Below the pieces are notes generated by a model. The model had not been told where the DNA came from, made no database searches, and saw only the letters and a program-made list of their open reading frames with translations. A DNA stretch of 64,000 bases from Lactarius indigo (lineage: Eukaryota; Basidiomycota; Agaricomycetes; Russulales; Russulaceae), in NCBI GenBank assembly GCA_025766275.1, contig JAFKAC010000163.1, positions 1 to 64,000 of the forward strand. Reading direction: 5' to 3'. The translations under genes were made by a program, and so were the position numbers. Below are positions 40,738 to 46,208 of this stretch, piece by piece (position 1 is the first letter of the stretch; every line of letters begins with the position of its first letter).

Positions 40738-40905
40738 GCTTCGAAGACGAGGCCGGCGATATCTACCGGACGGGTGGGTGTAGTCCCCACGTTTCTCCTT
40801 AGTCCAACACAGGACCTGTGAACGTATAGCATGGCAAAGCTCTCAGACAGAACTCGGGGGAACCTCGGGAAAGAAGTGACGGGTTAAAAGCTCCAAAAGC
40901 GAAGA
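40738..40905 (+). repeat. Direct repeat, copy 1 (partner 41662-41832)
   Basis: Shares with the partner copy GAAGACGAGGCCGG(C), AT(A/C)TA(C)CGGA(C/T)GGG, GTGTAGTC(C/G)CCACGTTTCT, GGCAAAG, AGACAGAACTCGGGGGA, AAAGAAGTGACGGGTTAAA and AAAAGCGAAG. Overall identity is roughly 75-80 percent by eye over 165 bp. No terminal inverted repeats or target duplications were found, so it is not assigned to an element type. Confidence 0.75.
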
Positions 40906-41661
40906 AAGAACTTGGGCGACAAGAACGGTAATTACCATTACGCTGCACCCCCGCTCGTGCTGGCCCAAAGGTCACCACAGAAATATATATACTGTAGGCA
41001 CCGTAGGATCCCTGTTCTAGGTCATTCAAGCCACCATGTTGTGGGTGCGACTGCCTCGGGAAAGTCCACGAAGATATCATAACTTGTTGGAACATCAAGG
41101 GCGAAGTATTAAACTACTGAAATTTTAAGCAGCACTGGTTTGACTTATGGCGCCACCCTGTCCAACGACTGCCTGCCCCGATCAGCGTCATCTCCTTCAC
41201 AGGGGACATACTTACTATTGAAGCTTGAAGGGTTGTCAATGCCGCCTTGGACGACATATCATATTTGCCGCGTCCCCCTGACATTTTTCTCAGAGTCCCC
41301 CTTCACTTGCTCAGGACTCTAAGAATCGATTTGGTGAGGTGGATTCAGACTGAACACTGCAAGGAACCCGGTCCCAATTAGAGAAACTCACATTGAACCC
41401 ACTTGTAAATAAGTACATACTGTTCTGTAAACCCTTGAAAGAATTCCGAAGTCCTCTATTGTAGCGCTCTTGATTCTTGTAGTACTTAAGGAACTTTCAT
41501 GTACCTACCAGAGCTCTAAGCTCGACCTACTGTGCTCAGCCGCAGTAGCTTTCTCGTATACACGTCTTTGGCTTCACGAACATCGATCCCGAACGACCTC
41601 GCTTTTCCCGGCTTGTCTTGTGCATCATCCGAGTCGCTCCGCCGTCTTGTTGTCGGCAATC

Positions 41662-41832
41662 GGTACGAAGACAAGGCCGGCCCGGGCAATATTTATCGGA
41701 TGGGCGAGTGTAGTCGCCACGTTTCTTATTTCTCTAGCACAAGATATGTGAATACATGTGGCAAAGTTCGGAGACAGAACTCGGGGGAGCCTCGAGAAAG
41801 AAGTGACGGGTTAAACTCTAAAAGCGAAGCGA
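41662..41832 (+). repeat. Direct repeat, copy 2 (partner 40738-40905)
   Basis: Same unit as at 40738 in the same orientation, about 0.92 kb away. The intervening DNA is unique. Could be a non-autonomous element inserted twice or a local duplication. Confidence 0.75.
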
Positions 41833-42148
41833 GATGGATACCTGAGCGACAACTCCTCAACAGTCCCGAATTTCAACAACTGATGTTATGATGCTTGTTA
41901 AAGATGTCCGCACCAAACCCAATGTCTCAACATGACATAACTTAATGCTCGACGAACTTTGACACGACTCAGTCCTTCAAAATATCGATGCAATTCCCAA
42001 TTTGTGACCCTCGTCACCGCTGCCTCCGCTCCTATTGTACCACTTCTCGCCATCCTAGGCTTGACATATGTCTTCGTGCGATGGCTTTCAGCGACCGTTT
42101 TTGAAAACGTGTACGCGCTGTTGCATCCTCACATTCTGATCTTATTGG

Positions 42149-44082
42149 CTATGATTCACCATCGAGACCAGAACTGTTACCGTGAGTGCTCGTAGCCACC
42201 CAGAGGTTTGTGGATACCTCAAGAGGAGTAACGGGTTCTGTTGAAGGGCCCATGTCGGATGTTAGCGCGGTAGGACCCGCGTTACCCACGACGTCCACGC
42301 GATTAGGATCCCTCGCACTGGCACCGCGCTTACTGCGCGTGCGATCACGCCTTTTGGTGCCACTTTGACCAATTGTGCGCACTATCGCAGGTGGACGACC
42401 TCCTAGTGCCCCCCCGCTAACAGACGCGGAGTTGCCAGCACCAGCGACGAGGAAACGTCCCACGCCCGATATCTCGCGAGCTGACGTCGAGAACTGGCCC
42501 ACCTGGAACCCGCTGCCCGGACTATTTCCCATCGAGTCAGGCAAGAAACCGAGGCCAATGGGCCGTACATTCCCAGGAATAGGCTTGCTATTTGACGCGC
42601 GATTACGGCCGGAGCCGTCTCGAGGCACCGAGGACGAAGTATCTCTAGGTTCGAGCCCAAGCACGTCGAGTGGTGGGAGACTATCCGGCTTCTCCTTGCA
42701 AATATTCATGAACTGTAACAAGAAGTCGCGATCATACCTACCACGGGAAAGATTTTAGATTAAATGGGATGTCAAAAGCGGAAAGTCAAGCGGAAAGTAC
42801 GCACCGGAACTTGCCATTCTGAGTGTTGACATTGAGCTCAACTTTAGGGCTTTTAACACCTTCTGGGTAAGTAATGCGACTGAGGTCTTCGATGTGCCGT
42901 GCAGTGGCGAGTGCAGAAGGTAAAGCGTGGAGGATGATGCTGGAACCCGTACTCTGGAGCACCGAGATCATGCTGGAGTTTGACGCTGTTCCTGACATAA
43001 ACGAATCACGGCTCTTGGGGTCACCCTTCTTGCAATTAGAGGCACTAGTTGAAGTGATGGTCGTTGGCATAGCTTTGTCAATCTCTCCGAATTGTGATAG
43101 ATCGATCGCTTTGGGTTGCGCGGCGGCTCCTGCGACGGACCACCCATCAGGATGTGGTACCCCACTCGTTGAGCTCGCCAGTGAGATGTCGTTACCCACG
43201 GCATGAGCGCGCACCCCAAATTGCATCGCCTCTACCCGGCGTGAAATTTCGGCTGCTCTCACTCCAGTTTGAGTACGGATGTCTTTGCGTACGGTGGCTA
43301 CGAGCACGACATCCTCTTCATTCATTCGGCCAACTTCGTCCAGGCTAAGAGGCGCCGCCCTTTTGCACAGCGCAGTTAAAGCAGGAACAACCCAATGGTC
43401 CACTGCGTATGTACGAGCGAGGATAAGCCGGTCGCATGGGGTCGGTGGCTTGATCGACTTCAACGCCAACTCGCGAAGTGGAGCGAAGCCCCAGCGCGTG
43501 GAAAGGTGGAGAACCGATTGCCATTGTTCGTACGAAATGTCGTGCTGTTCAAAACTTCTAGATGTATACATCTTGATAAACGGAAAATAGGAGAAGGTGT
43601 TGAGAACTTACTCGGGATACAAGACAGAAAGAAAGGCTTCGAAGTCCTCACATTTGACGTCCCCAAGCGATACGATGGTCGATAAAGCCTCATGGTCACG
43701 TACTCCAAGCTGAGAAAATCGTGTTGAAAAATACGTAGAATCGCGAGAGAATAGATGACGGTGGACACAGTAAAGAAAACCATTGACCTGTGACTTCCTC
43801 AGCACATTGGGGACATATGCTATATACATGACGCACCAAAAATGTGACATCGCCATCCATGAAGTATTTGCTATGTCGTAGGAAAGAATCATCGCTTTGG
43901 TGGAGTGAGCCAGCTGGTTTCTCACTCTCACCGGACCCCCTCCCTAGAAAGCTCGTGGGTCTGGCTCCAGACCCAGTATGACGAGTCTCAGAGGGGTAAA
44001 TGGAAACCACCTGAGAGTAAAGACTCACACGAAACAGCAGGGATAACACCCGTACTCGATACAAGAGAAGAGATACTGTCAT
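42149..44082 (-). CDS. Chimeric protein: BTB/POZ domain fused to the eIF4E-binding linker of eIF4G
   Basis: Four exons (44082-43837, 43787-43612, 43557-42805, 42737-42149) give 587 aa with consistent phases. Residues about 60-255 are a typical Agaricomycete BTB/POZ protein: YFMDGDVTFLV, YCVHRHLFSRDSTYF, VKCEDFEAFLSVLYP, W-x-S-V-L-H-L-S-T-R-W-G-F, LRELAL, DRLILARTYAVDHWV, ALCKRAAPLSLDEVGRM. Within the same exon, from about residue 271, the protein turns into the N-terminal linker of basidiomycete eIF4G: PKAIDLSQFGEI, ALATARHIEDL, ITYPEGVKSPKVELNVN, KFRYDRDFLLQFMNICKEKPD, LPPLDVLGLEP, RTRSKRG and PLEVSTNLW. It stops just before where the MIF4G domain would begin. Y393-D-R-D-F-L-L399 fits the eIF4E-binding consensus Y-x4-L-phi. 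Start: a good ATG at 44082, though an upstream exon cannot be excluded. Confidence 0.8.
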
Positions 44083-44651
44083 CGTTCTCTCCCCAAGAGA
44101 TTATACGAGGTGTCATAACAGTAATGTTGTTATCACTGGCAAGGTTGTTATCTGATCCTAGTCAATAAGGATTTTATGCAACATCGTGTTGGCGCTCGTG
44201 TTACGTCTTTATTCATGAGGGACGTTCATGTTCCAAAATTATCGTGTTAGTATGGACGCAAATTTCAAAGATCGCAACAGATTACCCTCTTCCCGTCGTC
44301 TCTTCTGCCCCCCAAAAAATAGCCCAGACCCCAGGTCCAGGCGGTCTCGGCAGTGCCACATGGTTCTGTTAGATGTACTAGAATACGTCACCAAGATCAT
44401 CTAATATAATGGCGATGTAATGCACGCGATAGAAGTACGAAAGGTAATCTCACCTTGCGCCCAGGGAGTGCGGAGAGCCCGGTCTGGGTTCCCGGCCCGG
44501 CTGGCATAAATTGAGGAGGGCAGTAGGAGGGCCCAACATGACCAACGCGTCACTCCAAAGCAAAACAGAAGAGTCAATTGCTAGTAGATATACATGAGAA
44601 GTTGCTACAAAACCATGGTCTCCTTTTTTTCTGGATCCAGTCGCGAGTGCG
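44083..44651. other. Intergenic, nothing supported
   Basis: 570 bp between the BTB-eIF4G start and the end of the oxygenase gene on the same strand; no feature supported. Confidence 0.5.
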
Positions 44652-46208
44652 CTAATTATAGTGCGTAACCCGCACGCCATTAACGACCTCGTACTCAGTC
44701 CCATCTTCCGCCCGCTCTAGCTGAGTGACGCCATACGTTGATGCCCTGTTCTTACGCCATGTTTCCTGTACAGGCGGAACTCCAATAATAGACTTGTTGA
44801 TGCCCTCACGCTGCACGACTGGACTGTTAAGCAGCGGTGCAATACGAACGTCGTCGGCCATGTAATGGAAGTAATACAAACCAAGCCTCCGGTAACCGTC
44901 CTGGTCAGATGGTGGCTTGATAACACGGTGTACTGCGGACTTGTAATAACCGCCTGACAGGTACTCTGTCGTGTCGCCGCAATTTACGACCTATGACACG
45001 ATATCAAGAGAGAGAGAGGAAGAACTGTTCACTGTAACTCACGAGTGCATTTTCGACATGCCTAACATAACGCCATTGGCCATCCCAGTCTTTGATTTGC
45101 AAAGCAGTCACAGGTTGACTCCAAATCGCCGTAAAGCTCGTGTGGTCTACAATATTTGTGAGTCGGAAGAGACAGCGCGACATGCAACAGTTACCAGCAT
45201 GACCCTTCATCCAAACGTTGTCTGTTTTATCCTCCTCTTCCTGGGAGCGGGGATTGCTAAGTCGATGACGTCAACTCTCAGGGACAGACGGTGTTTGTAA
45301 ATGACATCATACTAGAGCATAAATCGCCCTGGAAAAGTGATGAACGGATGACAGTGGGTATGAATCGAGTGTACTTACAGAACGAGTGGTTGGTCTCGTT
45401 AAAGGGATGTAAGTCAGGTAGTGTATTTTCCGGGAGCTCGAGGCCCAGCGACAGAAGCCTGCGTTGTGATAAGAATATATAATCAGAGAGCTTTGAAATT
45501 TTGAACTGACTTTTGCACCTCGTTCAGGACTCCGCGATGAGTGAACTCGACGATCCTCTGAACTTCAGGCAAGAACGGACGAAGTACATTCGGGTGTTCT
45601 CGGCGAGAGACGTCTCGGGGAACTAGTGTATTTCAGTGAATGTTGACTCAGATTCTGTAGCAGTCTCTCACAGTTATAGTGCTCGATCCTATCCTTGACT
45701 CCGTTGGCAATATGCTGATCGGGGGTCAGGACCGTACTAAGGCGCAATCGGATTGCGCCACGTACCCAATACTGGGGAAGTTTATAGCCTAAGTACTCCC
45801 CGGTTTCCTTTATCCGGGCTCGATAGCGGATTTTTTCCTCCTCGCTGACATCGTCAAAAGCAAGAGCCGCAATATCGACCATTCGATCGACCTACATAAA
45901 CGCTGTTACCTGGTGGCCCATGGTCATAACGAACTATTACCTACAATTGCTTTATCGAGGCCATGATTGATCACATAGAAGAACCCTTGTCTGTGAGTGG
46001 CATCACGCGCCAGTCGCACCTGCTCGGCGCGACCCTCTGGTGTCTTAGCCTTAGCAAGGTCAATAAACGTCAGATCGGCCCAGTCAACTAGCCAGGCATC
46101 AGCGCCCATAGAGATGGTGAGTGGCTGACTTTGCTTACTGTCTTCCTTCGTGACTGGTGCAGGGACCCAGCGTCTGACGGGGGGAAGGTTCGAAATGTTG
46201 GTAGGCAT
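44652..46208 (-). CDS. 2-oxoglutarate/Fe(II)-dependent oxygenase (isopenicillin-N-synthase-like)
   Basis: A small-molecule oxygenase of the DIOX_N + 2OG-FeII_Oxy type. First exon 46208-45945 (starts MPTNISNLPPVRRW) has DLTFIDLAKAK and QGFFYVINHGLD, the N-terminal DIOX signature; exon 2 (45891-45766) has EEEKIRYRARIKETGEYLGYKLPQYW. Further short exons give VKDRIEHYNFPRDVSRREHPNVLRPFLPEV, ELPENTLPDLHPFNETNHSF, NPRSQEEEDKTDNVWMKGHADH, then ALQIKDWDGQWRYVRHVENALV, VNCGDTTEYLSGGYYKSAVHRV and RLGLYYFHYM. Iron ligands H-x-D (GHADH) and the distal His (AVHRV), plus the 2OG-binding Arg region, are present, so it should be active. About nine exons; the middle ones are approximate. Substrate cannot be inferred. 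It is divergent from the DENN gene. Confidence 0.85.

Follow-up and report, generated by a model that had tools for sequence, protein, structure and literature searches.

The first 64,000 nucleotides of contig JAFKAC010000163.1 of Lactarius indigo (positions 1 to 64,000 of the forward strand; hereafter the window, contig C72 in a genome assembled into 291 contigs totalling 90.3 Mb) carry a chimaeric gene in which a BTB domain is joined in frame to pieces of the translation factor eIF4G. We tentatively propose, at slightly less than an even chance, that this is a real chimaeric gene common to several Lactarius species and that its product is a BTB-tethered competitor of eIF4G resembling the eIF4E-binding proteins (4E-BPs).

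The gene lies on the minus strand at 44082-42149 and, in a model built from splice signals alone, has four exons encoding 587 amino acids. Exon 1 (43837-44082) encodes an alternative N-terminus and the beginning of the BTB domain; its ATG (44082-44080) has an A at -3, and the start is uncertain. The BTB core is encoded by exon 2 (43612-43787), within the Pfam BTB match (PF00651, residues 78-170, E 1.6e-8, 35.1 bits against a cut-off of 20.5). Exon 3 (42805-43557) holds the BTB C-terminal helices, an eIF4G block from behind the MIF4G domain and the first part of the eIF4E-binding module. Exon 4 (42149-42737) adds the eIF4E-binding motif, the region following it and an RS-like linker, and stops directly before the expected start of MIF4G. 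The three introns measure 49, 54 and 67 nt and all follow the GT..AG rule. An earlier note on this DNA had described a single in-frame exon (43557-42805) leading from BTB into eIF4G, an intact eIF4E motif and a protein ending before MIF4G. These descriptions hold: the reading frame of exon 3 is uninterrupted from BTB into the eIF4G sequence, the motif YDRDFLLQF is complete at residues 393-401, and neither MIF4G nor MA3 was found in the 587 residues by Pfam search or segment comparison.

On the sequence evidence, the open frame was confirmed as the product of neither chance nor mis-assembly. An assembly artefact was rejected because a second copy of the locus (C281:1316034-1319630) is 100% identical across 3,597 bp, the two differing by 13 bp in length 5' of the gene, and because relatives carry the same BTB-to-linker join. 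The two copies being identical, their comparison gave no selection signal.

Comparison by blastn with three of the genome's own loci traced the gene to three pieces, all on the minus strand. BTB-gene-derived DNA, introns included, spans 43160-43985 (79.5% identity to the BTB gene at C259:1217221-1216394). It is followed by an eIF4G post-MIF4G linker at 42952-43160 (PHPDGWSVAGA..DLSQFG..SVLQS; 76.6% to C259:1277822-1277605) and by an eIF4G pre-MIF4G segment at 42152-42944 (76.5% to C259:1279657-1278882, a common intron position included). The true full-length eIF4G, for which the earlier note had suggested looking elsewhere in the genome, is on another contig (C259:1281931-1276959, minus strand) in the order eIF4E site, MIF4G, post-MIF4G linker, C-terminal part; of the genome's 8 MIF4G matches, none falls on C72 or near C281:1317k. 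Residues ~274-343 of the fusion thus correspond to the linker after MIF4G, and residues 352-587 to the region before it. The eIF4G portion is permuted by this alignment, since the IDLSQFG block belongs behind MIF4G in true eIF4G. The note's assignment of the whole C-terminal half to the eIF4G N-terminal linker stands for residues 352-587, which include the Pfam eIF_4G1 match (PF12152, residues 352-410, E 2e-20), and fails for residues ~274-343. A two-piece fusion of BTB with the N-terminal linker was accordingly rejected, as blastn gave three pieces and placed the origin of the middle one behind MIF4G. The proposal that an expanded BTB family had been joined to a translation-factor module agrees with these origins and with the BTB array on C259.

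The two eIF4G blocks meet at CTCCAGA, a sequence found at both source places, which suggests that they were joined by microhomology recombination. The 67-nt intron (42738-42804, minus strand) occupies the position it has in true eIF4G, between GKFR and YDRDFLL, indicating that the eIF4G segment was copied as DNA and not as cDNA. A retrocopied origin was rejected because both this intron and the BTB introns are retained. At C259:1063k, a remnant of the post-MIF4G linker stops at eIF4G position 1277605 and is followed by MIF4G, a breakpoint common to the fusion in the window; no eIF4E site was matched at C259:1062292-1063369. In the L. psammicola protein P0106, as judged by eye, MIF4G and MA3 follow a join of similar size. 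Several of these pieces may descend from a single, old rearranged copy of eIF4G, although that descent is an inference. The BTB array on C259 (1124-1240 kb), whose nearest match found lies ~37 kb from eIF4G, offers a plausible source for such joins. Separately, a second MIF4G copy was noted at C259:1062292-1063369 and C3:145381-146103, and P0106, P0150, P0160 and P0161 are eIF4G-like proteins with an unusual segment order.

The canonical eIF4E-binding motif is encoded at 42710-42736 (minus strand); the genome's best match to its expected partner, eIF4E, lies at C226:1583336-1583758. The region surrounding the motif matched the eIF4G chains in solved structures from Chaetomium (6fbz/6fc0, E 2.4e-7) and yeast (1rf8, 3.8e-4), and more weakly the human structure 5t46 (E 0.19, or 0.044 using the core alone). 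The alignment to Chaetomium eIF4G comprises YDRDFLLQF itself, residues upstream of it and the EKPD that follows. Against 6fbz it stops at EKPD, and any non-canonical C-terminal motif for the lateral surface of eIF4E would lie beyond it. PMC8558276 describes this non-canonical motif as poorly conserved in general, 4E-BPs as competing with eIF4G through the common canonical motif, and Chaetomium eIF4G as adding two N-terminal helices. YDRDFLLQF is kept in all three locus models that cover it (window/P0121, P0122 and P0123), a count from which P0124 and P0125 (which begin after the motif) and P0163, P0164, P0141, P0146, P0151 and P0166 (which end before it) are excluded; the related proteins P0145 and P0106 keep it too. 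The sequences of L. vividus and L. hengduanensis (both ending ..LDSESPPIRSM) and of L. indigo (..LDGES) share the position at which MIF4G has been lost, while L. hatsudake and P0125 have different ends, likewise before MIF4G.

The fusion was also found in relatives, where the earlier note had suggested looking for it. From three protein searches (best 120 of 205, best 120 of 148 and all 19 matches listed), 23, 20 and 5 proteins were read (P0115 twice), and records running from BTB into the linker were picked by eye. At least six further records do so in frame: P0163 from L. sanguifluus, P0164 from L. vividus (its second half being P0124, on an equally long contig), P0166, P0141, P0146 and P0151. 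Together with the window this gives seven sequences, each with an uninterrupted frame leading from BTB sequence to the linker. The last four records have the same in-frame join as the window. P0163 and P0164 contain the BTB core and lack a stretch of ~40 residues spanning the join (from AMQ to about QPK), through either a deletion or a predicted intron. In a phylogenetic tree, the window BTB and five of the six records formed a clade (support 99/91), which is consistent with one origin; the tree omits P0146, three of the five records fill less than half of its columns, and 5 of the 27 named paralogues were skipped for want of a clean core. The top matches P0001, P0002 and P0003, fusion-like by E-value, were rejected because they consist of two or three BTB stretches without eIF4G. 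By reading, P0001 and P0002 (L. psammicola and L. hengduanensis) each have three consecutive BTB stretches predicted as one protein.

Comparison with true eIF4G revealed 89% amino acid identity in the eIF4E-binding core (66 codons), with a ratio of nonsynonymous to synonymous substitution rates (dN/dS) of 0.17 by NG86 and 0.35 by YN00, and 63% identity in the RS linker (dN/dS 0.35 and 0.59, respectively). The core also differed from the RS linker in L. hatsudake (p 0.028) and in P0141/P0125 (p 0.003). L. indigo and L. sanguifluus were 88% identical in the BTB domain (171 amino acids) and 70% identical in the post-MIF4G linker (53 amino acids; Fisher p 0.005). These p values use counts from rounded identities and do not amount to a branch test. 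The BTB/linker and core/RS contrasts speak for selection on both ends of the putative protein.

How such a protein might work can be outlined from its parts. Recombination at the DNA level between a gene of the BTB tandem array and a rearranged eIF4G copy would have created the gene. If expressed, it would yield a BTB domain extended by helices (perhaps BACK-like), followed by a disordered post-MIF4G linker and a fungal eIF4E-binding module, and this protein would occupy eIF4E in eIF4G's stead. MIF4G and MA3 have roles in recruiting eIF4A or eIF3. With both domains absent, eIF4A and eIF3 would not be brought in, and cap-dependent translation would thus be held back. Self-association of the BTB domain would make the eIF4E trap bivalent, and a link of the fusion protein to Cul3 is possible.

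Several observations weigh against this account. In 10 of the 13 BTB paralogue loci that were read, a single frame runs through exon 1, from a Met preceding IVSW-like sequence as far as the BTB. Exon 1 in the window is without 10 + 7 nt relative to BTB paralogues, which puts the conserved ATG (44116-44114) out of the BTB frame: the overlapping frame from the ancestral BTB start, called by paralogue alignment (43988-44116, minus strand; MTPRIISWGEN...) within the open reading frame 43988-44161, reaches a stop at 43988. The BTB frame consequently requires ATG 44082, the BTB core itself being in frame. Of all the evidence, this frameshift speaks most strongly against L. indigo having a normal BTB N-terminus. 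It may also explain why BTB is omitted from the deposited NCBI model, P0121, which has 251 amino acids and begins at an internal Met within exon 3; the L. hatsudake (P0122) and L. hengduanensis (P0123) models also begin at an internal Met. A putative 51-nt intron in exon 1 (GTATCG...CTCTCAG), whose removal would bring the ancestral start back into use, was judged unlikely by reading, as the paralogues keep this stretch as exon. Among the matches listed, the BTB core was present only in L. indigo, L. sanguifluus and L. vividus. P0166, P0141, P0146 and P0151 begin in the C-terminal half of BTB and read into an unspliced intron, and have the appearance of single-exon models predicted from genomic DNA. 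In a neutral simulation at 0.1 substitutions per site, the BTB exons remained open in 17% of runs. The BTB/linker contrast with L. vividus is weak (85% against 74%, p 0.10), and the post-MIF4G linker, 69% identical to eIF4G, gave dN/dS values of 0.40 (NG86) and 0.88 (YN00). For BTB, dN/dS was calculated from exon 3 against twelve paralogue loci, some of them at corresponding places of two haplotypes. The six closest gave 0.30-0.50 (NG86) and 0.42-0.68 (YN00), the other six being saturated. The same ranges were obtained for the fusion against L024, L025, L026 and L029, as compared with 0.23-0.35 and 0.28-0.37 for the six pairs among these four loci. The ten pairs among five paralogues including L028 span 0.23-0.58 and 0.28-0.78, and only pairs with L028, the BTB of another chimaera, reach 0.37-0.58 and 0.56-0.78. 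The fused BTB thus seems less constrained than ordinary array members, yet its dN/dS stays below 1. This comparison reduced our confidence in the BTB-tethered competitor from an even chance to slightly below it.

Part of this evidence would fit a functional product that is a short eIF4E-binding protein of ~250 amino acids starting inside exon 3, the BTB being a residue of the rearrangement; such a protein would resemble a 4E-BP without dimerisation. The internal Met of P0121, P0122 and P0123, the frameshifted ancestral start and the raised dN/dS of the fused BTB are all in agreement with it. However, in L. sanguifluus and L. vividus the BTB exons stay open and show higher conservation than the linker, both domains occur in the single predicted, partial model P0163, and ATG 44082 keeps BTB in frame. 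We consider the short product somewhat unlikely. The locus might also be evolutionary debris: one among many unstable rearrangements of BTB and eIF4G, neither expressed nor functional, in which the frame happens to be open. The further scrambled eIF4G copies (C259:1062k, P0106, P0150, P0160 and P0161), the repeats that adjoin the gene, the exon-1 frameshift and the raised BTB dN/dS would be expected of such a remnant. The seven frames open from BTB into the linker, the conserved splice site and eIF4E-binding core, and a BTB domain more conserved than the linker in at least one comparison would not, and we regard debris as improbable.

The fusion could instead be a Cul3 adaptor whose eIF4G-derived part serves as substrate receptor, marking eIF4E or eIF4E-bound complexes with ubiquitin. 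A model of the BTB family weakly resembles BTB-BACK Cul3 adaptors: fold searches returned weak BTB-BACK matches, but Foldseek gave none at E<=0.001, and unrelated helical proteins (DnaB loader, TetR regulators) reached the same Z. In PDB sequence searches with the BTB paralogue P0014 and profile A1, no BTB chain was among the matches listed. Cul3 itself is probably present in L. indigo, an assignment that rests on the N-terminal part of the cullin at C281:1999k. The N-terminal frame of this locus matches only Cullin-3 at E<=0.01 (14/14), whereas its C-terminal frame prefers Cullin-4 to Cullin-3 (150 vs 122 bits). Many BTB proteins, moreover, are not Cul3 adaptors, and we hold this role to be very unlikely.

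The proposed eIF4G competitor can be placed beside known systems. With true eIF4G it has in common the PF12152 region, YDRDFLLQF, the RS-like linker and the intron position, but it is without the eIF4G N-terminal region, MIF4G and MA3, its post-MIF4G linker precedes the eIF4E-binding module, and BTB has been added. Like the 4E-BPs (4E-BP1/2, yeast p20 and Eap1p, CUP and 4E-T), it has a canonical motif and no MIF4G and would be expected to compete with eIF4G; unlike them, its module is inherited from eIF4G itself and joined to BTB. KLHL25-CUL3 and other BTB-BACK Cul3 adaptors offer a further parallel, as they combine BTB with a helical extension, which the fusion may have, and act near eIF4E control. 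The receptor of the fusion would, however, be an eIF4G fragment, and KLHL25 is reported for 4E-BP1, not eIF4E. If expressed, the fusion would be a natural case of a likely translation repressor made by wiring the eIF4E-binding piece of eIF4G to a protein-interaction domain. It would bear on how 4E-BP-like regulators can arise from eIF4G and on the role of the expanded BTB families of mushrooms.

A search of the open-access PMC literature found no paper on BTB fusions with eIF4G or eIF4E, or on Lactarius BTB families. The earlier note, whose interpretation was partly supported overall, knew of no described example. The fusion is not the only BTB-eIF4G chimaera of the group: others have the reverse order or carry MIF4G. 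In L. sanguifluus P0004 and L. quietus P0113, an eIF4G N-terminus with the eIF4E site is followed by BTB in one predicted protein. L. indigo has a like arrangement at C259:1216248-1219424 and C49:70852-72304, where an eIF4G N-terminus, an eIF4E site and a second partial eIF4E region precede a BTB gene; that these form one gene is putative. The opposite-order chimaera has the same two ingredients as the fusion in the window in reverse order. Its two BTB domains form a separate clade (support 100/98), and blastn matched no post-MIF4G block in the L. indigo arrangement. Descent of the window fusion from it was judged unlikely on these two grounds. Russula earlei P0018 (681 amino acids, predicted) represents a third kind, with BTB, linker and MIF4G and without the eIF4E motif. 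The Russulaceae might keep a small family of such chimaeras, of at least three kinds (BTB to eIF4E site, eIF4E site to BTB, and BTB to MIF4G), acting at the cap-binding step; the kind in the window would serve both as a dimeric eIF4E trap and as a receptor for a ubiquitin ligase, connecting the expansion of BTB genes with the control of translation. We rate this broader idea as distinctly improbable. The other chimaeras and the position of the BTB array ~37 kb from eIF4G suggest that neighbouring genes may seed new fusions.

Immediately 3' of the stop codon, 41856-42096 (no strand assigned) is multi-copy sequence with 75-77% identity to six other places in the genome, and 41479-41661 is likewise multi-copy. 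Just downstream of the fusion, a ~150-bp direct repeat (copies at 40755-40909 and 41685-41834, ~930 bp apart) resembles the terminal repeats of a small element. Upstream of the fusion, 44652-44990 on the minus strand holds a reading frame that may be the C-terminus of a 2-oxoglutarate/Fe(II) oxygenase-like gene.
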